DNA from: Roseomonas haemaphysalidis
GTDB taxonomy: Bacteria; Pseudomonadota; Alphaproteobacteria; Acetobacterales; Acetobacteraceae
DNA: 64,000 nt
NCBI RefSeq assembly: GCF_017355405.1
Contig: NZ_CP061177.1
Span: 930,001 to 994,000 of the forward strand
Reading direction: 5' to 3'
This document shows positions 25,557 to 43,512 of the stretch, in pieces (position 1 is the stretch's first letter; each line of letters starts with the position of its first letter). Position numbers and translations under genes: made by a program. The notes below the pieces were generated by a model, which saw only the letters and a program-made list of their open reading frames with translations, was not told the DNA's origin and made no database searches.

Positions 25557-25641
25557 GGACATGTCTCCCTCGGGCCCGGTGTGGTTCGGGCGATTGCCCG
25601 CATGATCGGCGGCCGAAGGGGCGGGCGCAAGCAGGGCGGTG

Positions 25642-26469
25642 CTATCCGCCCCGGGGCGCGGGCAGGGCGGCGGCCTCGAAACACGGCGTCACCAGCAGGT
25701 GCGGCATCGCCAGGGCGGCGATGGCGGCGAACAGGGGGCGGATGCCGGTCTGGTCCGCCGGCAGCAGCCACAGGCCGATGGCGGCGGCCAGGGCCACCGC
25801 CAGCAGCAGCACCGGCCCGGTGGCCCGCAGGTATCCGGTCAGGCTGCGGCATCCCAGCATGGCCTGCCGCGCGGCGGTCTGCGGCAAGGCATGCAGCACC
25901 AGAAAGCCGACGGAAAAGCCAACCAGCGGCGGCAGCGCCAGCAGGGCCACGACGCCGCCAAGGAGGCGTGGGTCGCGGCGCCGCCACGCCAGCCCCAGCA
26001 GCACCGCCCCCGAAACGCCGCCGGCGGCGCCCAGCATGGCGGCCAGGGGCGCCCAGGCGCCGGACGGCCCGCCGGCCGCCGCCAGCACCGCCGTGTATTG
26101 CGGCAGGTGAAGGGCGGCGGGCAGGGCGATCATGGCGATGCCGCGCGCGGCCTGCTCCCACACAGGATGCCCCGGCGCATCCTCCAGGGCGAAGTGCAGG
26201 GCGGAGGCCGCCATGAACAAGGGCAGCGCCATGGCTGGCCGCCAGGCCCACCACAGCAGGCAGGCGCCCAGCACCAGCAGATAGGCGGCAACAAAGCCAG
26301 GCCGGCGCGCGGGCGGAACGATGGCCAGGTCGCTGGCGCCGTGCGCCATGCCGACAATGCCGATGGCGACAATGGCGAAGGCCAGCTGCAGGGCGGGCGG
26401 CGCACATGCCGCGGCAGCGCTGGCGGCGGCCAGGCCGCCCAGCGCCAGCGGCCGGGCGTGGCGGGTCAT
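25642..26469 (-). CDS. blh: Brp/Blh-family beta-carotene 15,15'-dioxygenase
   Basis: This 275-residue, about eight-helix membrane protein matches the Brp/Blh family, which cleaves beta-carotene into two retinals. The four histidines expected to hold the iron are His43 (GMAHGASD), His92 (LHFALED), His193 (VLHALPQ) and His257 (AMPHLLV). Its ATG overlaps the stop of the rhodopsin gene in an ATGA, so the two are translationally coupled. The function follows directly: it supplies the rhodopsin chromophore. No carotenoid biosynthesis genes are in the window. There is no conserved hairpin in the 85 bases between it and the aldehyde dehydrogenase. Confidence 0.9.
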
Positions 26470-27176
26470 GCCCGCCGGCGGCCGGACCCGTCCGGCGCGC
26501 GCAGCGCCGTGTGGAGGTTGGCGGCGGCGTAAAAGGCGTAGACGACCTTGGCCACCACATCCAGCACCAGGATCACCCAGACCGAGGTGGGGTCGCTGAC
26601 CATCCGCAGGCCTTCCGGCCCGACCAGAAACACGATCGGGTACAGGAACCAGATGACGGTGAGAAAGGACAGGTTTTTGAGATAGGCCCGGCCCAGCGCC
26701 GTGCTGTGCTCGCGCGCCATGGCGAGCAGCGGCACCCACAGCAGGTACAGGACGCCGGCAAAGGCGGCACAGGACCATAGGTACCAGACCCATTTGCCGG
26801 AAGCGCTGGGCGACAGCGCCGAAACCAGCCCCGCCACGATCATCAGCACGTCGAGCACGATGATGGCCACCAGAAAGCCGCCGATCTCCCCGGTCCGGCC
26901 ACGCTCGTGAAAGGCCAGCAGCACCAGCCCCGACAACAGGATCGGCGTGGTCACCGACCAGTCGGCATAGCGCGCGAGATACACGGCGGCGCCATCCTGC
27001 AGCAGCGTGCCGAAGCCGAAGGCCATGGCGAGATAAGCCGTCGCCGCGATGAACGGGACGCTGCTGTGCAGCAGAACATGGTGGCGTGCCGGCGGCCTGC
27101 GCTCGCCGGTCGCGTAAATCGCGAGCGATGCCAGCGACATGATCGAGAAGCCGATCAGAAAAGCCGTCCTGTCCAT
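26466..27176 (-). CDS. Microbial rhodopsin, DTG-type proton pump with helix-B histidine
   Basis: This 236-residue, seven-helix type-1 rhodopsin has the retinal Lys210 in VLDVVAKVVYAF, with Asp206 as second counter-ion. Helix C reads ARYADWSVTTPILLSG: Arg69, Asp72 (primary acceptor, bacteriorhodopsin D85), Thr76 (T89), and Gly83 where bacteriorhodopsin has the proton donor D96. Helix B has His37 (LLHSSVP) aligned with T46. Leu80 at the spectral-tuning site (bacteriorhodopsin L93) predicts green absorption. Proteobacterial pumps with Gly at the donor site and a unique helix-B His have been described as efficient outward proton pumps (Harris and co-workers, 2015, from memory). AGGACC weakly precedes the ATG. 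Confidence 0.93.
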   Translation of the reverse strand: MDRTAFLIGFSIMSLASLAIYATGERRPPARHHVLLHSSVPFIAATAYLAMAFGFGTLLQDGAAVYLARYADWSVTTPILLSGLVLLAFHERGRTGEIGGFLVAIIVLDVLMIVAGLVSALSPSASGKWVWYLWSCAAFAGVLYLLWVPLLAMAREHSTALGRAYLKNLSFLTVIWFLYPIVFLVGPEGLRMVSDPTSVWVILVLDVVAKVVYAFYAAANLHTALRAPDGSGRRRA

Positions 27177-27308
27177 GGGTGCGGTCCTGTTCGCGATGCG
27201 GCCCAAGGCGAGCCTGCCGCGACAACGTGGCCCGGCGCGGCACAGCACGGCGATGAAAGGAATTTCATGTGCCCGGCATCCGGACGTCACGTGAGGATGC
27301 GCGGGGGG

Positions 27309-27785
27309 TCAGCCGCCGGGGGGCGCCGCGGCGGCGTGCAGCAGCCGTTCGCGCAGCTGGTCGATCTCGTTCCGCAGCCGCTCCAGCGCGGCGAGGTCGA
27401 GGCCCGATGCATCCAGCACGCAGGCCGGGATGGTGGCGGCCTTGAGCTGCAGCGCCCGCCCCTGCGGGGTCAGGCGCAGCCGCACCTGCCGCTCGTCCCG
27501 CGGGTCACGCGTGCGGGTCAGGTGGCCGAGCGCTTCCAGCCGCTTGAGCAGCGGGGTCAGGGTGCTGCTTTCCAACAGCAACTGCTGGCCGACCTGGCTG
27601 ACGGTGCGGTCGTCCGCCGCCCACAGCACCACCATCACCAGATATTGCGGATAGGTCAGCCCCACCGCATCCAGCAGCGGCTTGTAGATGCGGTTGAACG
27701 CGTGGCTGGCCGAATACAGGGAAAAGCACAGGAACTGGTCCAGGGCGGGCGGCGACACAGGGGGCGTGCGGGGGGACTTTGCCAT
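27309..27785 (-). CDS. ohrR: MarR-family regulator, OhrR-like
   Basis: This 158-residue MarR protein has the redox-sensing Cys20 in LDQFLCFSLYSASHAF, the hallmark of OhrR, followed by the winged HTH (TVSQVGQQLLLESSTLTPLL) and the wing TRTRDPRDERQVRLRLT. Organic peroxides oxidise the Cys and release DNA. It is divergent from ohr across 122 bases that hold an inverted repeat. It lies 132 bases upstream of the rhodopsin gene on the same strand, so read-through into the rhodopsin operon is possible. Confidence 0.9.
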   Translation of the reverse strand: MAKSPRTPPVSPPALDQFLCFSLYSASHAFNRIYKPLLDAVGLTYPQYLVMVVLWAADDRTVSQVGQQLLLESSTLTPLLKRLEALGHLTRTRDPRDERQVRLRLTPQGRALQLKAATIPACVLDASGLDLAALERLRNEIDQLRERLLHAAAAPPGG

Positions 27786-27798
27786 GCCGGATAATAAA

Positions 27799-27862
27799 TC
27801 GTGCGCGATGGGATTGCCAGCGATTGACGCCACCGGAGCGAGGCTATAAACATCGCACACGA
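27799..27862. promoter_or_regulatory. Inverted repeat and promoter elements in the ohrR-ohr gap
   Basis: TCGTGCGCGAT (27799-27809) and ATCGCACACGA (27852-27862) are inverted copies matching at 10 of 11 positions. Between them TTGACG (27824) and TATAAA (27845) may form the ohr promoter, though the 15-base spacer is short. The sites could bind OhrR and bracket the promoter. Confidence 0.4.
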
Positions 27863-27907
27863 CATGATCGCAGCCGATGTTTTAGCTGCCAACCGGGAGA
27901 CAGTCAG

Positions 27908-28336
27908 ATGACCGTTGACGTGAAGTACACGACGACCGCGACCGCGACGGGTGGCCGCGACGGCCGCGCCACCACCAAGGACGGCGCGCTGGACGTGAAG
28001 CTGGGCGTGCCCAAGGAGATGGGCGGCAACGGCCAGGGCAACAATCCGGAGCAGCTGTTCGCGGCCGGCTACTCGGCCTGCTTTCTGGGTGCCATCAAGG
28101 CCGTGGCGGCCAGCGACAAGACCGGCCCCAAGGTGCCGCAGGACGCGACGGTGACGGCGACGGTGGGCATTGGCCCGCGCTCGGAAGGCGGCTTCGGCAT
28201 CACCGCGGCGCTGGACGTGGCGCTGCCCGGGCTGGACCGCGCGCAGGCCCAGGCGCTGGTCGACAAGGCCCACCAGGTGTGCCCGTATTCCAACGCCACC
28301 CGCAACAACGTCGACGTGCAGATCACCCTCGTCTGA
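27908..28336 (+). CDS. ohr: Organic hydroperoxide resistance protein Ohr
   Basis: This 142-residue OsmC/Ohr-family peroxidase has both reactive cysteines: Cys58 in GYSACFLGA and Cys125 in HQVCPYSNATRNN. Arg20 (GGRDGRA) and Glu48 (NNPEQLF) complete the active site. The C-terminal motif CPYSNATRNNVDV distinguishes Ohr from OsmC. It reduces organic peroxides using lipoylated proteins. The start is the ATG following GAGACAGTCAG. Its neighbour OhrR is the expected regulator. Confidence 0.94.
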   Translation: MTVDVKYTTTATATGGRDGRATTKDGALDVKLGVPKEMGGNGQGNNPEQLFAAGYSACFLGAIKAVAASDKTGPKVPQDATVTATVGIGPRSEGGFGITAALDVALPGLDRAQAQALVDKAHQVCPYSNATRNNVDVQITLV

Positions 28337-28389
28337 CGCAGCGGCGCCGCTCAATCCAGCTGGATGTCGAGCGGCCCCGCGACCGCCTG

Positions 28390-28407
28390 CGGGAACCGTG
28401 TTTCCCG
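28390..28407. terminator. Short hairpin between convergent ohr and response-regulator genes
   Basis: CGGGAA and TTCCCG form a 6-bp stem with a six-base loop. It lies in the 89-base convergent gap, with a further AGCGGCGCCGCT palindrome near 28341. Neither has a T tract, so terminator function is uncertain. Confidence 0.35.
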
Positions 28408-28425
28408 CCGGCGGTGCCCCGTGCC

Positions 28426-29169
28426 TCAGGCACCCGGAAATCCCACGAACACGTAGCCGATGCCGCGCACCGTGCGGATGCAGCCATCCACCCGCTCGTC
28501 GCCCAGCTTGCGGCGCAGCACCACGATGGCATTGTCGACCGAGCGATCGCCGAACCGCCAGGGGCGGCCAAAGGCGAGCCGGGACAGGTCCTCGCGCGAC
28601 ACGGGCTGGCTTTGGGCGCGGACCAGCGCCTGCATCAGCTCGAACTCCGCCGTGGTCAGGTGGATCGGCTGCCCGTTCGGGCGGAACAGGTTGCGCGTCG
28701 CCACCGCGAAGCGCCAGCCGGGCGGCTCGGCTTCCGCTTCCGCCGGGCGGCGCAGCCGGGCGCGCAGCCAGGCCACCACTTCCCGCCCCGACACGGGCTT
28801 GACCAGAAAGTCGTCGGCGCCGGTTTCCAGCCCCAGCACGCGGTCCACCTCGCTGCGGTTGCCGGTGACGATGATGATGATCGCCTTGGTCGCCGCCCGC
28901 AGCTGCGCCAGGCGCGACACGGTGTCCACCTTGCCCAGGTGCTGGTCCAACAGGATCGCTTCCGGCTGAGCCTCGGCCAGCAGTGCTTCCAGCCCCGCCC
29001 AGTCGTAGCTGGTGCGGATGCGGAAGCCGTAGCGCCCGACCACGTCGGACAGCTCGTCCGCCCATTCGCGCTGGTCATCGACCACGTAAACCAAGGGCTC
29101 GACGGCGCGGGCGCCGCCATCCTGCGCCGTGTCCGCGATGCGGGCTGCGCCCTGCTGCTCCGCTTGCAT
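28426..29169 (-). CDS. OmpR-type response regulator
   Basis: This 247-residue protein has a receiver domain (residues about 26-140) with the acidic pair Asp31/Asp32, phosphoacceptor Asp75 (AILLDQHLG) and the Lys of LVKPVSG. A C-terminal winged-helix DNA-binding domain follows (LTTAEFELMQALVRAQ, SVDNAIVVLRRKLGD, IRTVRGIGYVF). The sensor kinase gene lies 11 bases upstream on the same strand. The first 20 residues are a polar extension. The target genes are unknown. Confidence 0.92.
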   Translation of the reverse strand: MQAEQQGAARIADTAQDGGARAVEPLVYVVDDQREWADELSDVVGRYGFRIRTSYDWAGLEALLAEAQPEAILLDQHLGKVDTVSRLAQLRAATKAIIIIVTGNRSEVDRVLGLETGADDFLVKPVSGREVVAWLRARLRRPAEAEAEPPGWRFAVATRNLFRPNGQPIHLTTAEFELMQALVRAQSQPVSREDLSRLAFGRPWRFGDRSVDNAIVVLRRKLGDERVDGCIRTVRGIGYVFVGFPGA

Positions 29170-34407: not shown

Positions 34408-35493
34408 TTAGTGGGCTTTGCCGCACAGGATCTCGGACGCCAGAGATTCCAGCGGCAGCACGCGTTCCACGGCGCCGGCGGCGATTGCTTCCTTGGGCAT
34501 GCCGAACACCACCGAGGTCGCCTCGTCCTGCGCCACGGTATGGGCACCGGCGCGGCGCATCTCCAGCAGGCCGCGCGCGCCGTCGTCGCCCATGCCGGTC
34601 ATGATGATGCCCGTCGCGTTGCCACCGGCGCATTGCGCGGCGGAGCGGAACAGCACGTCCACCGAGGGCCGGTGGCGCGCCACCAGCGGGCCGTCCTTGA
34701 CTTCCACGTGGTAGCGCGCGCCGGAACGGCGCAGCAGCGTGTGCCGCGCCCCGGGGGCGATCAGCACGCGGCCGCGCAGCACCGTGTCGCCATCTGCAGC
34801 CTCCTTGACCTCCACGGCGCAGAGGCCGTTCAGCCGGTGCGCGAAGGCGGCGGTGAAGCGCTCCGGCATGTGCTGCACGACGACGATGCCCGGGCTGTCG
34901 GCGGGCAGGGCCTGCAACACCTCGCGCAGCGCCTCGGTGCCGCCGGTGGAGGCGCCGATGCAGACCACCGACTCCGTGGTGCGCGCCATGGCGTGCCGCC
35001 CGCTGGGCGGCGGCAGCACGGCGTCTGCGGTCAGCTTCTTCTCGACGGCGCGGATCTCGCCGCCGCGCGGCCGGGCCCCGCGGTTCAGCCGGGCGCGGGC
35101 GGCACCCTTGATGGTGTCGCAGATGGTGACGCGCGCTTCCAGCAGCCCCTGCCGCGTATCGAGCTTCGGCTTCAGCAGGATGTCCACGGCGCCGGCTTCC
35201 AACGCCTGCATCAGCGTTTCCGAGCGCGCTTCCACCAGCGAGGAGCACATCACCACCGGGATGGGGCGCTGCGCCATGATCTTGCGCAGAAAGGTGATGC
35301 CGTCCATGCGCGGCATTTCCACATCCAGCGTGATGACGTCGGGCACTTCCTGCTGGATGCGCTTGGCGGCGACAAAGGGGTCGGACGCAGCACCCAGCAC
35401 CTCGATCTCCGGGTCGGACGCCAGGATGTCGGTCAAGGTCTGCCGCACCACGGCGGAATCATCGACCACCAGGACGCGGATCTTGCCGGGCAT
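34408..35493 (-). CDS. cheB: Chemotaxis response regulator methylesterase CheB
   Basis: This 361-residue protein has a receiver domain with Asp11/Asp12 and phosphoacceptor Asp57 ([13 protein letters not shown]), a linker of about 50 residues, and the methylesterase domain. The catalytic Ser ([11 protein letters not shown]), His ([10 protein letters not shown]) and Asp ([11 protein letters not shown]) are present. It removes methyl groups from chemoreceptors when phosphorylated by CheA. It is the last gene of the minus-strand che operon, one base after the cheR stop. Confidence 0.95.
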
Positions 35494-35494
35494 G

Positions 35495-36352
35495 TCAGGT
35501 CCTGCGGAACACGGTGGCGGCGACGGCTTCCACCGGCAGGCCGAAGCCGGCCAGGGATTCCGAATGGCCGAGAAACAGGAAGCCGCCCGGGCGCAGCTGC
35601 GCGCAAACCCGTTCCAGCACCGCCTGCTGCGTTGGCTTGTCGAAGTAGATGAGGACATTGCGGCAGAAGGCGATGTCCATCGTGGTATCCAGCCGATACG
35701 CGCCGTCCATCAGGTTCAGGCGGCGAAAGCGCACGAACTGCCGCAACTCCGGCGCCACCCGCACCAGGCCCGACGACTCGCCACGCCCGCGCCGCAGGTA
35801 GCGCCCGCGCATGGCGGGCGGCACGGGGGCCGCCATCTCTTCCGGGTAGATGCCGAGCAGGGCGGTTTCCAGAACGCGGCTGGAAATGTCGGTGCCCAGG
35901 ATGGAAGGCGTGAAGCGCCCCCGCGCGGTGGCCACGGCATCCAGTACCATGGCCAGGGTATAGGCCTCGGCACCGGTGGAGGCGGCGACGCTCCAGGCAT
36001 TGAGCACCGGCACGCGGCCCGCCGGCGCGTCCCGCAACAACTCGGGCACCACCTGCTCGGCCAGAATGCGGAAATGCTCCGGCTCCCGGAAGAACTCGGT
36101 CTTGTTGGTGGTGACGGCGTCGATCAGCGCCACCACCTCCTCCGCCATGCCATCCCGCTCGAACAGAAAGGCGCAGTAGTCGCGCAGGTCGTCGCAGCCG
36201 GTGGCGGCCACGCGCTTGCGCAGCCGGCCTTCCAGCATGGTGCGCTTGGTGGGCGGCATCTTGATGCCGCTGTGCTCCTCGATGAACCGGGCGAGGCGCA
36301 GGAAGTCGGCGTCCCGCAGCCGGTCCAGACGGTCGGCCATGTCCTGCTGCAT
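35495..36352 (-). CDS. cheR: Chemoreceptor methyltransferase CheR
   Basis: This 285-residue protein has the CheR N-terminal helical domain ([20 protein letters not shown]) and the SAM-binding catalytic domain ([43 protein letters not shown]). It methylates receptor glutamates. Its start codon lies at the edge of the repeat that ends the upstream receptor gene, four bases after that gene's stop. The receptors end in a pentapeptide that could dock it. Confidence 0.95.
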
Positions 36353-37253
36353 GGCGTCAGAACCGTTCGAAATCGTTGTCGCGGCTGTCGGGGCCGGCGG
36401 ACATGTCGAGGGTGGCGCCGGTGGTGGCGGCGGGGCGCGGCCTGGGGCGGGCGGGGGCGGCGGCGACGGGGCGCTTGGCCAGGCCGCGCGCGGCCACCTG
36501 GGCGCGCTGCGCCGGCTGCGCCGCCGGCACGGTCCGCACCGCCTCCACCGCCACGCCGCGCGCTTCCGTGCGGAAGTAGGCGATGCTGGATTGCAGCTGC
36601 TCCGCCTGCGCCGCCAGCTCCTCCGACGTCGCCGACATCTGCTCGGACGCCGAGGCGTTCTGCTGCGTCACCTTGTCCAGCTGCTGGATCGCCTGGTTCA
36701 CCTGCTCGCCGCCGATGTCCTGCTCGCGGCACGCCGCGCTGATCTCTTCCACCAGCTCCGCCGTGCGCTTGATGTCGGGCACCAGCCGCGCCAGCATGCC
36801 GCCCGCTTCCTGCGCCACCTTGACCGACTGGAACGACAGCCCGCTGATCTCGCTCGCCGCCGTTTGGCTGCGCTCGGCCAGCTTGCGCACCTCGGAGGCG
36901 ACCACGGCGAAGCCCTTGCCATGCTCGCCGGCGCGCGCCGCCTCGACGGCCGCGTTCAAGGCCAGCAGGTCGGTCTGGCGGGCGATCTCCTGCACGATGG
37001 TGATCTTCTCGGCGATGGTCTGCATGGCCTGCACCGCGCGGCCCACGGCCTCGCCGCTGTTCTGCGCGTCGGTGGCGGACTGGCGGGCGATCTTCTCGGT
37101 TTGCGCGGCGTTGTCGGCGGTCTGCTTGATGTTGGCCGCCATCTGCTCCATCGAGGCGGAAGCCTCCTCGGTGGACGAGGCCTGCTCCGTCGCCCCCTGC
37201 GACAGCTCCTCCGCCGAGGCCGACAACTCCTGGCTGCCCGACGACACGTTGTC
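36349..37253. repeat. Direct repeat, copy A (chemoreceptor signalling half)
   Basis: This roughly 904-bp segment matches 38866-39770 with five base differences, seen by direct comparison. It spans the signalling domain, the stop codon and the ATG of the following gene (cheR here). Homology ends sharply after ACGACACGTTGTC. Only one difference changes an amino acid. Confidence 0.92.
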
Positions 37254-38369
37254 CGCAGCCTGCAGCGCATCGCCCACCACGCCGCGCAGGCGGCCGATCA
37301 TCTCGTTGATCTGCTGCATCAGCTGGCCGATCTCGTCGCTGCTGCGAACGGTGCCGGTGCGGGTCAGGTCGCCGCCCGCGACCGCCTGGGTCAGCGACAC
37401 CGCCTGGCCAAGCCCGCGGCTGATGCTGAGCGACAGCCACAGAGCGATGCCGGCGCCCGACAGCGTGGACAGCAGCAGCGCCACCATCAGAATGGTCCCG
37501 GCGCGCTCGGCATCCTGCGTCGCGGTGTCGCGCGCTTCCTGCATGCGGGCCTGCGCCATGGCGTTGTAGGCCGCGATCTGGCCGTCGATCTCGGCCCGTG
37601 CCTGGCGGGCACCACCGATCGACAGGTCGATGGCGGTGATGACGCCACCTTCGCGGACCACTTCCACGGCGCGGCTCATCAGCTCAAACCAGCGCTCCAG
37701 CGGCGGCAAGGCGGGTTCCAGCCCGGCGGTGCCGCGCAGCCCGTCCCGCTGCTCGCGCACCGCCGCCAGGCCCGCGCTCATCCGACGGACATTGCCGGCC
37801 AGCTTGTCCTGGGTGGTGCTGAGGAGCGCGTCCTTGACGGCGACATCCACCAGCAGCATCGCTTCGCTCAGCGGGGCCGCGGCCGACAGCCGCGCCAGGG
37901 CGGCGCGCGCATCCCGCAGCGCCGGCCGGGCCTCGTCCACCAGCAGCTGGCCGCGCACGGTGGAATTCTGCAACGCGCCCGTCCGCACCTGGTCCTGCAG
38001 CGGCATGTAGCGTTCCAGCATCATCTGCAGGGTGTCGAGCAGCCGCCGCGCCTCGGGGTCGGAGATCGCCTGCAGGTTGCTCAGCGCCTGCAACGCGGCG
38101 CGGCGCTTTTCCACCAGCAGGTTCGCCTGCGCCTCGATCGGCCCGGCGTCGGACAGCAGGATGGCGTTCTTTTCCGCCTGCACGCTTTCCAGCAGGTTGA
38201 TGCGCAGCTCGCTGGCCAGCCGCGCCTGCTGCGCCCGGGTGGTGGCGAAGTCCTGGATGGTCGCCTGCAGGGACTGCTGGTTGCGCCATGCGACGCCGCC
38301 GGCGGCCAGCGACAGCAGGATCACCAGGCCGAAGCCGCCCGCCAGCTTGAGTTTGACCGAGACATTCAT
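36357..38369 (-). CDS. Methyl-accepting chemotaxis protein (receptor A)
   Basis: This 670-residue transmembrane receptor has an N-terminal membrane helix ([16 protein letters not shown]), a long helical periplasmic sensor, a second membrane helix near residue 300 ([19 protein letters not shown]), a HAMP domain, and the signalling hairpin with the tip [19 protein letters not shown]. It ends DFERF, which fits the CheR/CheB-docking pentapeptide pattern x-aromatic-x-x-aromatic. The last 298 residues differ from receptor B by one residue (Asn for Ser). The sensor differs from that of receptor B, so different ligands are likely. Confidence 0.93.
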
Positions 38370-38413
38370 GGAGCCAGATCCGTTTTGGAAGAGAGGGTGG
38401 CCGACGGGCCGGT

Positions 38414-38869
38414 TCAGAAGCTCAACTCGCCGGCGGCGAACAGCCGCCCGACGTCAAGCAGCAGCACGAAGTCCTCGCCCTGCCGGCCGACGCCGAGCAG
38501 GTGATCGGACCGCCAGGGCGCGCCGAGGTCCGGCGGCGGCGCGATGTCGCCGCCGCCCAGCGCCGTGACCTCGAACACGCGGTCCACCATCAACCCGACC
38601 ACCCGGCCACCGCCGATGTCGAGCACCAGGATGCGGGTGTGCTCGGTGGTCCCGGCGTCCGGCATGCCGAGGCAGGCGCGCAGGTCCATCACCGGCACGT
38701 TGCGGCCGCGCACGTCGATCAGTCCGAGCACCCGGGCCGGTGCCTCGGGCAGCCGCGTGATGCGGCGGCTGTCCAGGATCTCCAGCACGGCGGAAACGGG
38801 GATGGCGAAGATGTCGCCATCCAGGCCAAGGGTCACAAAGGGCCCGCCAGGAGCAGGGGCGTCTGGCAT
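38414..38869 (-). CDS. cheW: Chemotaxis coupling protein CheW (first)
   Basis: This 151-residue protein is a single CheW domain: [20 protein letters not shown], then [17 protein letters not shown] with the conserved Arg, and [14 protein letters not shown]. It bridges receptors to CheA. It lies between the two receptor genes. Its start codon is part of the repeated DNA that also ends receptor B. A second CheW is encoded at 40699. Confidence 0.94.
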
Positions 38870-39770
38870 GGCGTCAGAACCGTTCGAAGTCGCTGTCGCG
38901 GCTGTCGGGGCCGGCGGACATGTCGAGGGTGGCGCCGGTGGTGGCGGCGGGGCGCGGCCTGGGGCGGGCGGGGGCGGCGGCGACGGGGCGCTTGGCCAGG
39001 CCGCGCGCGGCCACCTGGGCGCGCTGCGCCGGCTGCGCCGCCGGCACGGTCCGCACCGCCTCCACCGCCACGCCGCGCGCTTCCGTGCGGAAGTAGGCGA
39101 TGCTGGATTGCAGCTGCTCCGCCTGCGCCGCCAGCTCCTCCGACGTCGCCGACATCTGCTCGGACGCCGAGGCGTTCTGCTGCGTCACCTTGTCCAGCTG
39201 CTGGATCGCCTGGTTCACCTGCTCGCCGCCGATGTCCTGCTCGCGGCACGCCGCGCTGATCTCCTCCACCAGCTCCGCCGTGCGCTTGATGTCGGGCACC
39301 AGCCGCGCCAGCATGCCGCCCGCTTCCTGCGCCACCTTGACCGACTGGAACGACAGCCCGCTGATCTCGCTCGCCGCCGTCTGGCTGCGCTCGGCCAGCT
39401 TGCGCACCTCGGAGGCGACCACGGCGAAGCCCTTGCCATGCTCGCCGGCGCGCGCCGCCTCGACGGCCGCGTTCAGGGCCAGCAGGTCGGTCTGGCGGGC
39501 GATCTCCTGCACGATGGTGATCTTCTCGGCGATGGTCTGCATGGCCTGCACCGCGCGGCCCACGGCCTCGCCGCTGTTCTGCGCGTCGGTGGCGGACTGG
39601 CGGGCGATCTTCTCGGTTTGCGCGGCGTTGTCGGCGGTCTGCTTGATGTTGGCCGCCATCTGCTCCATCGAGGCGGAAGCCTCCTCGGTGGACGAGGCCT
39701 GCTCCGTCGCCCCCTGCGACAGCTCCTCCGCCGAGGCCGACAACTCCTGGCTGCCCGACGACACGTTGTC
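38866..39770. repeat. Direct repeat, copy B (chemoreceptor signalling half)
   Basis: Partner of the repeat at 36349-37253, offset 2517 bases in the same orientation. At its left end it carries the start codon of cheW. Recombination between copies would fuse receptor B directly to cheR and delete cheW and the receptor A sensor. Confidence 0.92.
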
Positions 39771-40685
39771 TGCGGCCGCCACGGCCTCCTGCACCACCGC
39801 GCGCAGCTTTTCCAGCATCTGCCTGAGCGCGATGCCCAGCCGGTCACGCTCGGACTGCGGCTGCACCGCCACCGTCAGGTCGCCGCCGGCGATGGCATCC
39901 GCCGCCAGGGCCATCTGGCGCAGGTTGCCGGTCATGTTGTTCAGCGCCACCACGAGGTCGCGGATCTCATCGTTGCTGCGCACCTCGATGCTTTGGTCTA
40001 GATCGCCTTGCGCGACGCTGCCGGCGAGGCCGACGGCCTTGGTCAGGCCACGGCTGATGCCGAGCGAGATCACCAGGCCGGCGCCGACCGCCACCAGCAG
40101 CGCCACCAGCATGGTGGCCAGCAGCATGATCTTGGCTTCGCCGTAGCGCTCGGTCAGGCCGGCGCGGGTTTCGGCGAGCCGGGTCTGGTTCAGCTCGATC
40201 AGCGCCTGGAGATGCGTCTGTGCCTGCCGGGTCAGCTGCCGCAGCTCGTTGGTGGACAAGGCCACGGCCCGCGCGGTTTCCCCGCCCTGGACCAGTTGCC
40301 GCACGCGGTCCTGCAGGGCCAGGTACTGCGCCCAGCTGGCATCGAACTCGCCGATCATCCGGCGGCCCTGGTCGCTTGCCAAACGGAACAACTGGTCGCG
40401 CGTGGTTAGCACGCTGGCGCGCTGCTCCAGCAGCTGGCTTTCGGCCACCGCCGCCGCTTCCGGGGTCGTGGCCAGCAGCAGGTTCTTTTCCGCGCGCACC
40501 ACCATCAGCATGGCGGTGAAGGTGTCGCGCGCGATCTGCACCCGCTGCACGGGGCCCTCCATCGCGCTTTCCACCCGCTCGTTGAAAGCGGACAGCTGCT
40601 GGGTGCCGATGAAGGCCGTCCCCGCCGTCAGCAGGATGACGAGGCCAAAGGCGGCGGCCAGCTTGGCCTTGATGGTGAATCGCAT
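38874..40685 (-). CDS. Methyl-accepting chemotaxis protein (receptor B)
   Basis: This 603-residue receptor has an N-terminal membrane helix ([19 protein letters not shown]), a four-helix-bundle-like periplasmic sensor of about 150 residues ([16 protein letters not shown]), a second membrane helix ([20 protein letters not shown]), HAMP, and the signalling domain shared with receptor A, ending DSDFERF. The ATG at 40685 follows AGGAGCAG; the longer frame to 40775 is rejected. It is followed four bases later by cheW. Confidence 0.93.
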
Positions 40686-40698
40686 GGTCTGCTCCTGC

Positions 40699-41187
40699 TC
40701 AGGCGGCGGGGATGGGCAGCGCGTCGGCCGCGCGCGGCTGCGCGAAGATCGGCCCGGGGTCGAGCACGACGACAAAGTCGTCGCCCAGCTGGCCGATGCA
40801 GCGGACGTATTCGGGGCGGCAGCGCAGGCCGAAGCGCGGCGTCTGGGTCATGCCGACCAGGGCGATGTCGCGCACCTCGTGCACCTTGTCGGCCTGCACC
40901 GCGACGGTGACGGGCTCATCCTCCAGCGGCACCTCCAGCACGATCACGCGGGTGTCGATGGTGGTGTCGCTCGGTGCCAGGCCCAGCTTCAGCCGCAGGT
41001 CGGCCAGCGGCACGATGCGGCCACGCACGTTGATCAGCCGGTCCAGAAAAGCCGGCGCATTGGGCACCAGCGTGCTGGGGCCGGGGTCCAGGATTTCCCG
41101 CACGTGGCGGGTTTCCAGCGCGAAACGCTCGCCTTGCAGGTCGATGGTCACGACGCGCAGCGTCGGCGTGATGTCGGGCGTGCTCAT
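40699..41187 (-). CDS. cheW: Chemotaxis coupling protein CheW (second)
   Basis: This 162-residue protein is a CheW domain ([54 protein letters not shown]). It is only distantly similar to the other CheW, so the two are not a recent duplication. It lies ten bases after cheA and 13 before receptor B in the operon. Confidence 0.94.
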
Positions 41188-41197
41188 GCTGCGCTCC

Positions 41198-43147
41198 TCA
41201 GGCCGCGGCCATCAGCCGTTCCTCGTGCGCCTGCCCGAAGGCGACGAGGGGGGCGATGTCCAAGATCAGCGCGACGCTGCCGTCGCCCAGGATGGTGGCG
41301 CCGGAAAACATCTCGACCTCCGCATGCAGCCGCGACAGCGACTTGATCACCGTCTGGTGGTCGCCGATCACCTGGTCCACCACCAGCCCGACCCGCTGGT
41401 CGCCGGCCGAGACGATCACGGCCTTCTTCAGCTTCTCGGGGTCGCGCGGCGTGGCGAAGACCTCGTTCAGCCGGAGAAACGGGATCAGGCTGCCGCGCAG
41501 GTTCAGGAAGTTGCAGCGCGCGCCACCGGCTTCCGCGTCCGCATCCAGCTCGACGCATTCCTCGACGGCGGTGAGCGGGATCACGTAGCGGCCCTCGCCC
41601 ACGCGCACCAGCAGGCCGTCGATGATCGCCAGCGTCAGCGGCAGGCACAGCGTCACCTCCGTGCCGGCGCCAGGGGAGCTGCTGACCTCGATGGAGCCGC
41701 GCAGCCCCTCGATGGTGCGCTTGACCACGTCCATGCCAACGCCGCGCCCCGACAGGTTGGTGACCGCGGCGGCGGTGGAGAAGCCCGGCTCGAAGATCAG
41801 CTGGAACACCTCCTGGTCGGTCATCGGCTGGTCGGGCGCCACCAGCCCGCGCTCCTCGGCGCGGGCGCGGATGCGGGCGCGGTCCAGCCCGCGCCCGTCC
41901 TCGCGGATGGACACGCGCACCTGCGCGCCGGCATGGCGGGCGGAAAGCAGCAGCCGGCCGCGCCGGGGCTTGTCGCCACGCTCCTCCGGCCGCTCCAGTC
42001 CGTGGTCCAGCGCGTTGCGGATCAGGTGCACCAGCGGGTCGTTCAGCCGCTCGATGACGGTCTTGTCGAGCTCCGTTTCCTCGCCCTGCATCACCAGCTC
42101 GACTTCCTTGCCGAGGTCGCGGCACAGGTCGTGCACCAGCCGGCGGAAGCGGCCGAACAGCTGGCCGATCGGCACGGTGCGGATGCCCATGGTGGTGTCG
42201 CGCAGTTCCAGCGCCAGGCGCTCGATCTCCTCCGCCACCGCGCGCAGCTGCATGTCGTGGCTGCCGCCCGCCACCTGCCGCAGCCGCGATTGGGCGATCA
42301 CCAGCTCGCCCACCCGGTCCATCAGCTCGTCCAGCTTGTTGGCGGGCACGCGCACGCTGTCGGCCGCGGGGGCGGGCTTGGCGGCGGGCGCGGCGCCGGC
42401 GGATGGCGGCGGCACGGCCATGGCGGCGGCGGGCGGCGCTTCCACGGGCGCGGCACCCAGCGGCTCCAGCGTCAGCGTCATGTCGTCGATCACGAACATG
42501 AACACGTCCTCGACGGCCGCGCGGGGGCAGGGGGCGTCCAGCTCCACCTGCCAGCCGATATGGCAGTCGGTCGGCTCCAGCTCCTCCAGCGGCGGCACGT
42601 CGCCGGCCAGCGCGGATACGCGCGCGGGGCCGAGGGCCCGCAACTCGTCCAGCAGCAGCAGCGGGTTGGTGCCCATGGCCATGGCATCGCGCGGCAGGCG
42701 GATGCCGATCCTCCAGCCCCGGGCAGCATCGTCCGCCGCGGCAGCCGCGGCCACGGCGGCGGATGCCCCGCCACCGCCCTGCACGATGGCGCGAAAGCCG
42801 TCCAGGATCGCGCTCTGCGTCGCGGCATCGGCCTGGTCCGGCCGGTCCAGCAGGATGCGCAGCTGATCCTTGGCCGACAGCGCCAGGGCCACCAGCTCGC
42901 TGCTCGCCGCCAGCTTGCCCTTGCGCACCTCGTCGAAGGCATTTTCCACATGATGCGTGAAGGCGGCCACGGCATCGAAGCCGAACATGGCGCCCGAGCC
43001 CTTGATGGTGTGCAGGGCGCGAAAGGCGCTGTCGATCAGCTCCATGTCGCCTTGCCGGTGCTCCAGGTCCAGCAGCGCCTGTTCCAGCTGCTCCAGCAGT
43101 TCCTGCGATTCCTGGCGGAACGTCTCGACAGGGTCGGGCGCGCCCAT
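41198..43147 (-). CDS. cheA: Chemotaxis histidine kinase CheA
   Basis: This 649-residue kinase has the HPt domain with phosphoacceptor His46 (FRALHTIKGSGAMFGF), a P2-like segment (about 140-245), the P3 dimerisation helices (ANKLDELMDRVGELVIAQSR), the P4 ATP-binding domain (HLIRNALDHGLERPEER, GRGLDRARI, GRGVGMDVVKRTIEGL) and the P5 CheW-like regulatory domain (VGEGRYVIPLTAVEECV). All catalytic boxes are intact. It follows cheY with a one-base overlap. Confidence 0.96.
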   Translation of the reverse strand: MGAPDPVETFRQESQELLEQLEQALLDLEHRQGDMELIDSAFRALHTIKGSGAMFGFDAVAAFTHHVENAFDEVRKGKLAASSELVALALSAKDQLRILLDRPDQADAATQSAILDGFRAIVQGGGGASAAVAAAAAADDAARGWRIGIRLPRDAMAMGTNPLLLLDELRALGPARVSALAGDVPPLEELEPTDCHIGWQVELDAPCPRAAVEDVFMFVIDDMTLTLEPLGAAPVEAPPAAAMAVPPPSAGAAPAAKPAPAADSVRVPANKLDELMDRVGELVIAQSRLRQVAGGSHDMQLRAVAEEIERLALELRDTTMGIRTVPIGQLFGRFRRLVHDLCRDLGKEVELVMQGEETELDKTVIERLNDPLVHLIRNALDHGLERPEERGDKPRRGRLLLSARHAGAQVRVSIREDGRGLDRARIRARAEERGLVAPDQPMTDQEVFQLIFEPGFSTAAAVTNLSGRGVGMDVVKRTIEGLRGSIEVSSSPGAGTEVTLCLPLTLAIIDGLLVRVGEGRYVIPLTAVEECVELDADAEAGGARCNFLNLRGSLIPFLRLNEVFATPRDPEKLKKAVIVSAGDQRVGLVVDQVIGDHQTVIKSLSRLHAEVEMFSGATILGDGSVALILDIAPLVAFGQAHEERLMAAA

Positions 43148-43512
43148 CAGCCCAGCACCTTGCGCACCACCGCCAGCAGCTGCTCCGGCTGGAACGGCTT
43201 GGTGATCCAGCCGGTGGCGCCGGCCGCCTTGGCCTGCGCCTTGATGCCAGCATCGGATTCCGTGGTCAGAAACAGGATGGGCACGCCGCGATAGGCCGGC
43301 AGCTTGCGAAGTTCCGTGATCAGGCCGAGACCGTTCATGCGCGGCATGTTCAGGTCGGTCACCACCATGTCCACGGCGCGGGCATTGGCCTTGGCCAGCC
43401 CGTCCACCCCGTCCTCGGCCTCCACCACCGCGAAGCCGGCGCCGGACAGCGTCATGCGCACCATCTGGCGCAGGCTGGCGGAATCATCGACGGTCAGAAT
43501 GGTCTTGCTCAC
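43147..43512 (-). CDS. cheY: Single-domain response regulator CheY
   Basis: This 121-residue receiver has Asp9/Asp10, phosphoacceptor Asp53 (VVTDLNMPRMNG), Thr83 or Thr84 (FLTTES) and Lys105 (TKPFQ). It starts with GTG, which overlaps the STAS gene stop as GTGA and has GAGG upstream. CheZ, CheC and CheD genes are not seen in the operon, so dephosphorylation must rely on autohydrolysis or on genes elsewhere. Confidence 0.93.
   Translation of the reverse strand: MSKTILTVDDSASLRQMVRMTLSGAGFAVVEAEDGVDGLAKANARAVDMVVTDLNMPRMNGLGLITELRKLPAYRGVPILFLTTESDAGIKAQAKAAGATGWITKPFQPEQLLAVVRKVLG

Follow-up and report, generated by a model that had tools for sequence, protein, structure and literature searches.

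The 64,000-nucleotide stretch of Roseomonas haemaphysalidis DNA analysed here (the window) encodes a rhodopsin and a carotene-cleaving enzyme, Blh, that very probably form a laterally acquired mirror-proteorhodopsin module, in which light-driven outward proton pumping would depend on retinal that Blh forms from the cell's own carotene. By its sequence, the window rhodopsin is a further member of a known, published kind of pump, the DTG group now called "mirror proteorhodopsins". Two results are new here. The module is inserted at a site in this genome and is absent from relatives, and the Blh enzymes linked to mirror rhodopsins carry a Gln/Gly pattern that points to an unexpected change across the whole clade.

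The rhodopsin gene lies at 26466..27176 on the minus strand (ATG at 27176, stop codon at 26466-26468) and encodes a mirror-type (DTG) rhodopsin of 236 amino acids. The protein matched PF01036 (Bac_rhodopsin) with 153.6 bits against a cut-off of 24.6 (E = 7e-45), with no second Pfam family, and it was the only rhodopsin match in the genome (4.9 Mb, 8 contigs). We aligned the rhodopsin with bacteriorhodopsin (BR) and GPR using MAFFT. When the two reference sequences were compared with those in the PDB, BR was identical and GPR differed at two positions (residues 2-249). In the alignment, His37 (codon 27066-27068) fell on Thr46 of BR, Asp72 (26961-26963) on Asp85, Thr76 on Thr89, Leu80 on Leu93, Gly83 (26928-26930) on Asp96, Tyr132 on Trp138, Asp206 on Asp212, and Lys210 (26547-26549) on Lys216, with all of these codons on the minus strand. 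These results confirm every residue named in an earlier, sequence-only reading of this DNA (Lys210, Asp206, Asp72, Thr76, Gly83, and His37), including the placement of His37 at the Thr46 site and of Gly83 at the Asp96 site. Antenna-binding pumps have Gly at the site equivalent to Trp138 of BR. Tyr132 occupies that site in the window rhodopsin, so no antenna opening is expected and an antenna carotenoid was rejected. Dual phototrophy was also rejected because the genome gave no match to Photo_RC (photosynthetic reaction centre).

The top phmmer match of the rhodopsin was SpaR of Sphingomonas paucimobilis (8ANQ; 368 bits), with 76.0% identity over 229 columns; the 8ANQ sequence matches the S. 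paucimobilis protein encoded at locus L029 without a difference over 230 residues. In the available text of PMC10154332, the source of the SpaR data given here and below, mirror proteorhodopsins are a clade with a DTG, DTS, or DTT triad, His32/His33, and His37 at the Thr46 site of BR; the clade takes in the DTG pumps of Harris 2015, and Ser121 and Ser199 occur in the vast majority of its members. The window rhodopsin has the DTG triad (Asp72, Thr76, and Gly83), His37, and both His32 and His33 on the cytoplasmic side, together with Glu91. Thus, equivalents of SpaR His32, His33, His37, Glu92, Asp73, Thr77, Asp207, and Lys211 are all found in the window, and SpaR is likewise followed by a Blh gene with an HxxxQ motif (L029). 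The two rhodopsins differ in that Ser84 and Ser121 of SpaR are replaced by Gly83 and Ala120; Ser199 is conserved as Ser198. Ala at the Ser121 site occurs in 5 of the 39 mirror rows, the window among them, and Ser in the other 34. The donor site is Gly in 28 rows, Ser in 10, and Thr in 1. The pumps PspR and PaR (Harris 2015, as described in PMC10154332) share the DTG triad and the helix-B His with the window. SpaR absorbs at 540 nm (PMC10154332) and Leu80 aligns with Leu105 of GPR, both of which support the guess of the sequence-only reading that green light is used.

A tree of 64 rhodopsins placed 40 mirror rows, including the window, on one side of a branch with a support of 100/100, and the window rhodopsin is monophyletic with SpaR on this branch. 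The support was 90/97 when BR and GPR were included, in a run whose bootstrap had not settled. L072, L073, L075, and L078 (partial frames), as well as L076 and L048, were dropped from the rhodopsin alignment; L074 was left out of the trees and residue counts; and upstream residues were trimmed from five rows. These results bear out the proposed membership of the group with a Gly donor site and a helix-B His. 7W74, which we take to be PspR, is 54.1% identical to the window rhodopsin and differs from it in having Gly at the positions of SpaR His32 and Glu92. The helix-B His had been called unique to the Gly-donor proton pumps. It is present in 39 of 39 mirror rows, but it is also present in all 24 counted non-mirror rhodopsins (23 from the host's bacterial family and one from Methylobacterium), of which 10 have Gly at the donor site, and therefore the His is not a mark of mirror pumps alone. 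At this site, L074, which is more distant within the family and has an acidic donor, carries Thr, as does BR, and GPR has Ser. In our alignment, the mirror clade is set apart by His at SpaR position 32 and Glu or Asp at SpaR position 92, neither of which occurs in any of the 24 non-mirror rhodopsins.

MpR, which belongs to a second DTG/DTS clade, has been reported as a Na+/Li+ pump (cited in PMC10154332), so the ion cannot be read from the triad alone. It is nevertheless highly improbable that the window rhodopsin is such a Na+/Li+ pump. The reading can draw on the report on MpR and on the helix-B His that is common to the 24 non-mirror rhodopsins, Gly-donor members included, but the window lies in the mirror clade at 100/100 in a tree from which MpR itself is absent, and it has the His and Glu at SpaR positions 32 and 92 that the 24 others lack. 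Furthermore, most MpR-like DTG/DTS proteins have carboxylates at SpaR positions 30, 31, and 33 (PMC10154332), whereas the window rhodopsin has Ala30, Arg31, and His33.

For a proton pump, the mechanism can be modelled on SpaR, from which we infer the transport, the pH range, the cavity, and the zinc sensitivity of the window rhodopsin. The mirror type, as represented by SpaR, pumps protons outward at acid pH only, below about pH 6.5, and is inhibited by zinc (PMC10154332). In the window rhodopsin, retinal would be bound at Lys210 and isomerised by green light. The proton of the Schiff base would pass to Asp72 and leave outward past Arg69 and Glu188/Asp195, and the Schiff base would be reprotonated from the cytoplasm via an open polar cavity lined by His32, His33, and Glu91. 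His37, opposite Gly83, would serve as a gate and possibly as the last donor. The net result would be outward proton pumping, strongest at acid pH. The light-driven energy supplement proposed from the sequence is conditional for the same reason, because SpaR pumps only at acid pH.

The sequence-only reading also had His37 replace the carboxylic donor, which we treat as a proposal. His37 of SpaR has been proposed as the proton donor, and M decay in SpaR is nearly pH independent at pH 4.6-6.0, which suggests an internal donor with a pK estimated at 5.8 (PMC10154332). On the other side, M decay is pH dependent at higher pH, and SpaR mutants with Ala or Tyr at position 37 keep some pumping and those with Lys, Arg, or Asn much of it, up to near-normal levels, whereas Phe and Leu block it (PMC10154332). 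The mutants make a gate role as likely as a donor role. That His37 is a hydrated gate only, with reprotonation directly from the cytoplasm through the cavity, falls somewhat short of an even chance.

The blh gene is located at 25642..26469 on the minus strand (ATG at 26469) and encodes 275 amino acids of the beta-carotene 15,15'-dioxygenase family in an HxxxQ variant. The protein matched PF15461 (BCD) with 72.3 bits against a cut-off of 28 (E = 6.3e-20), again as the sole Pfam family, and scored 90.4 bits with NCBIfam TIGR03753, below the cut-off of 95.25. The rhodopsin stop codon and the blh start codon overlap in ATGA at 26466..26469 (minus strand). The junction reads GGGC-ATGA-CCC; therefore, blh starts within the rhodopsin stop, as had been noted from the sequence, and Blh would probably be translated by coupling. 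A genome scan gave 36 related loci from Sphingomonas, Stakelama, Pantoea, Erwinia, and one record labelled Arthrobacter, 35 with a mirror rhodopsin and one (L048) with a remnant. A Blh match follows downstream on the same strand in 36 of 36 loci, and a 4-base overlap is found in 30 of the 35 named loci (L013-L047) when starts are chosen mechanically. The tight coupling of the two genes is thus supported.

Some of the loci depart from the common form. In Sphingomonas sp. PAMC 26621 (L024 5711-6525), a broken Blh frame lies behind a full-length rhodopsin, and for L034 the search upstream of the Blh match yielded no start codon. L048 5001-5891 (Sphingomonas rubra) is a second, decayed copy with 29 rhodopsin residues and Blh in two pieces. 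L031 (Arthrobacter sp. TPD3018) carries a Sphingomonas-type mirror module, for which mislabelling or contamination is likely. L137 and L138, from the same phylum and another class, have rhodopsins about 40% identical to that of the window, with an HxxxH Blh.

We compared the window Blh with the marine 66A03 Blh, in which four His are reported as metal-binding and essential: Ala at His21, His78, His188, or His192 leaves <5% of the activity (Kim 2009, as given in the available text of PMC9227343). Placed by motif and spacing, these residues correspond to His43, His92, His193 (codon 25891-25893, minus strand), and position 197 of the window Blh. The two proteins share the family by profile and three of the four listed His (His43, His92, and His193) by motif; they differ in that the second His of HxxxH is Gln197 in the window (25879-25881, minus strand) and in that the first two His are 49 residues apart, as against 57 in 66A03. 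A spacing of 49 was found in the four mirror-type Blhs measured. Among 11 HxxxH Blhs measured, the spacing of 57 was found in 6 (range 55-62), and the spacing of 4 between positions 188 and 192 was found in all 11.

To define the distribution of the variant, Blhs from 79 sources were surveyed and counted as mirror-linked where the rhodopsin shared 50% identity or more with SpaR or 7W74. Position 197 was Gln in 38 of 38 readable mirror-linked Blhs and His in 27 of 27 other readable Blhs. The unreadable Blhs were those of two mirror loci, L024 (broken frame) and L041 (contig end), and of three others, L048, L063, and L065; nine sources lacked a Blh within the stretch examined; and L143 and L144 (weak matches under the cut-off) and L140 (the window again) were left out. 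The 38 include near-duplicates (L142 of L035, L130 of L027, and L129, close to L018 and L026), and without L142 the counts are 37 Gln and 27 His. Gln is likewise present in the Blh of L141, where the rhodopsin shares 80% identity with 7W74, and the second Blh piece of L024 reads HALPQ in another frame. In the Blh alignment and tree, from which L142 and the five unreadable rows were left out, position 188, five residues before His193, was occupied by Gly in every one of the 37 mirror rows and by Tyr in all 27 others. Four His (His43, His92, His193, and His257) were invariant in all 37 mirror rows, and the HxxxH Blhs share five invariant His. One branch separates the Gln and His sets (SH-aLRT 98, by a quick method with long branches flagged), so the variant seems to have arisen once, long ago, and to have been inherited since, rather than to have arisen many times independently. 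The AlphaFold model of the window Blh, built with 18 aligned sequences, is all-helical with a pLDDT of 93.2, and both His193 and Gln197 lie in helix 181-204.

We infer that the Gln197 Blh is active and that the four invariant His, with His257 as a ligand, suffice to hold the iron. The chances are about even that mirror rhodopsins are accompanied by a retinal-forming Blh class of their own, in which the metal site has been rebuilt (HxxxQ, Tyr to Gly, and a shorter first gap); either the reported ligand set would be wrong, with His257 a true ligand, or the product, rate, or regulation would be altered. Two sequence searches of the PDB gave no match to Brp/Blh enzymes. No published description of the Gln variant was found among the titles and abstract openings of the papers listed, where few subscription papers are covered, and the words blh, dioxygenase, carotene, and operon are absent from the main text of the SpaR paper (PMC10154332).

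A carotenoid cluster was detected by profile search at G000:C1:1045990-1055389, about 52-61 kb to the right of the window. It contains crtI (TIGR02734) and crtY (TIGR01789), both above the cut-off; crtB, which is above the cut-off for PF00494 and below that of the best NCBIfam phytoene synthase model; and a crtE-like polyprenyl synthase (PF00348) that lies below the cut-offs of the FPP and GGPP synthase models. A CrtW-like ketolase (model below cut-off) and a glycosyltransferase are also present. L012:6343-6861 gave no profile match of note and is, judging by its motifs, presumably CrtZ. The carotene pathway expected in the genome was thereby found, and crtY exceeds the cut-off in 4 of 17 genomes of the genus. 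No RPE65-type cleavage enzyme was found in the genome by a search that found one in 2 of 14 controls; therefore, of the two enzyme families covered, only Blh provides a recognised retinal-former. Blh would cleave beta-carotene supplied by the crt genes to retinal. The earlier claim that retinal is made on the spot does not follow as a matter of course for the window Blh, because one of the four His reported as essential is missing. This missing His and the score below the TIGR03753 cut-off count against the module reading, as does Ala120 of the rhodopsin at the Ser121 site. It is unlikely that mirror-linked Blhs have lost retinal formation, with retinal coming from another source, or that they have another substrate or product. 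The Gln and Gly in all readable mirror-linked Blhs, the broken frame of L024, and the missing start of L034 fit such a loss, but the four other His are invariant, the helical model is confident, a Blh match stands beside the rhodopsin in every related locus, and the genome yielded no RPE65-type enzyme.

In regards to the origin of the retinal-forming module, a comparison with two genomes of the same genus (G016 and G007) defined an inserted segment at 25573..28434 that contains blh, the rhodopsin gene, ohrR, and ohr. The ALDH and response-regulator/kinase genes are about 100 and 150 bp apart in these two genomes, and 2.86 kb lies between them in the window. The empty site was found in 2 of the 9 relatives fetched around ALDH; the other seven had no regulator/kinase match in the stretch. 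Both empty-site relatives have crtY. The rhodopsin occurs in 1 of 17 genomes of the genus. A rhodopsin match was obtained in 28 of 397 genomes of the host's family, the next best being 45% identical, and no mirror rhodopsin was found in the 396 other genomes, which speaks against Sphingomonadaceae as the host's family. The hosts given for mirror proteorhodopsins are only Sphingomonas, Pantoea, and Pseudomonas (PMC10154332, available text), a list outside which the host of the window apparently falls. Vertical inheritance with loss by the relatives, instead of acquisition, is improbable in view of the empty sites and of this distribution. Base composition is ambiguous on the point: the GC3 values of the rhodopsin gene (0.87) and blh (0.90) are close to those of five neighbours (0.89-0.94), as vertical descent would have it, but the total GC of the rhodopsin gene (0.664) is below that of the window (0.723), with blh at 0.762. 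AU tests rejected neither alternative placement. In the first, with the window separated from all 39 other mirror rows, the score exceeded that of the free quick tree by 5.56 log units (p-AU 0.633); in the second, the window was grouped with 35 core mirror rows to the exclusion of the four most divergent ones (p = 0.482). The window may thus lie within or at the base of the mirror clade, and a basal place would suit vertical descent.

The acquired segment carries two further genes. An ohrR-like MarR regulator (27309..27785, minus strand) lies 132 bp upstream of the rhodopsin gene on the same strand; co-transcription may put light pumping under peroxide control. The ohr gene (OsmC family; 27908..28336, plus strand) is divergent from ohrR. 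Positions 27890-28383 of the window are 98.6% identical to G000:C1:466763-467257, and this tract runs past ohr into the apparent tail of a neighbour at the other locus, so the window ohr looks like a duplicate. A conserved link between ohrR and rhodopsin was rejected: none of these two genes and ALDH was matched in any of the 36 related loci, and the neighbourhood is therefore not shared with them. Terminal repeats that would mark a mobile element were looked for at the ends of the insert, and none was seen among the repeats listed (the best 20 of 21 direct families and the best 25 of 28 inverted pairs). Viral carriage found no support in IMG/VR, which gave no relative of the rhodopsin and none of a SAR11-type Blh. 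Three mirror modules are on named plasmids (one from Sphingomonas and two from Pantoea), which makes plasmids a possible vehicle for these modules.

Other parts of the window also resemble plasmid DNA. Positions 34470-43510 (approximate limits) are similar to plasmid DNA of Azospirillum, Shinella, and Methylobacterium, annotated as chemotaxis genes in Methylobacterium, and Azospirillum and Methylobacterium rank first among the plasmid matches of positions 28300-53000. The top-ranked plasmid match of positions 1-25000 was Pseudoroseomonas cervicalis (80.4% over 3 kb). The ALDH gene has an 84.8% match in another record, and many further records match shorter parts of positions 1-25000, four of them at 90% or more. 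These matches point only weakly to a Roseomonas-like member of the Acetobacteraceae. A 16S search gave no match in the assembly, where the same search succeeded in 9 of 14 controls.

The insertion shows a mirror module arriving in a lineage some members of which have lycopene cyclase and lack the module. If the reading of Blh is true, the module would have two linked departures from textbook chemistry, a pump that lacks a carboxylic donor and a carotene cleaver that lacks a His held to be essential, and the Blh variant would make the question of which His hold the metal in Brp/Blh enzymes directly testable.
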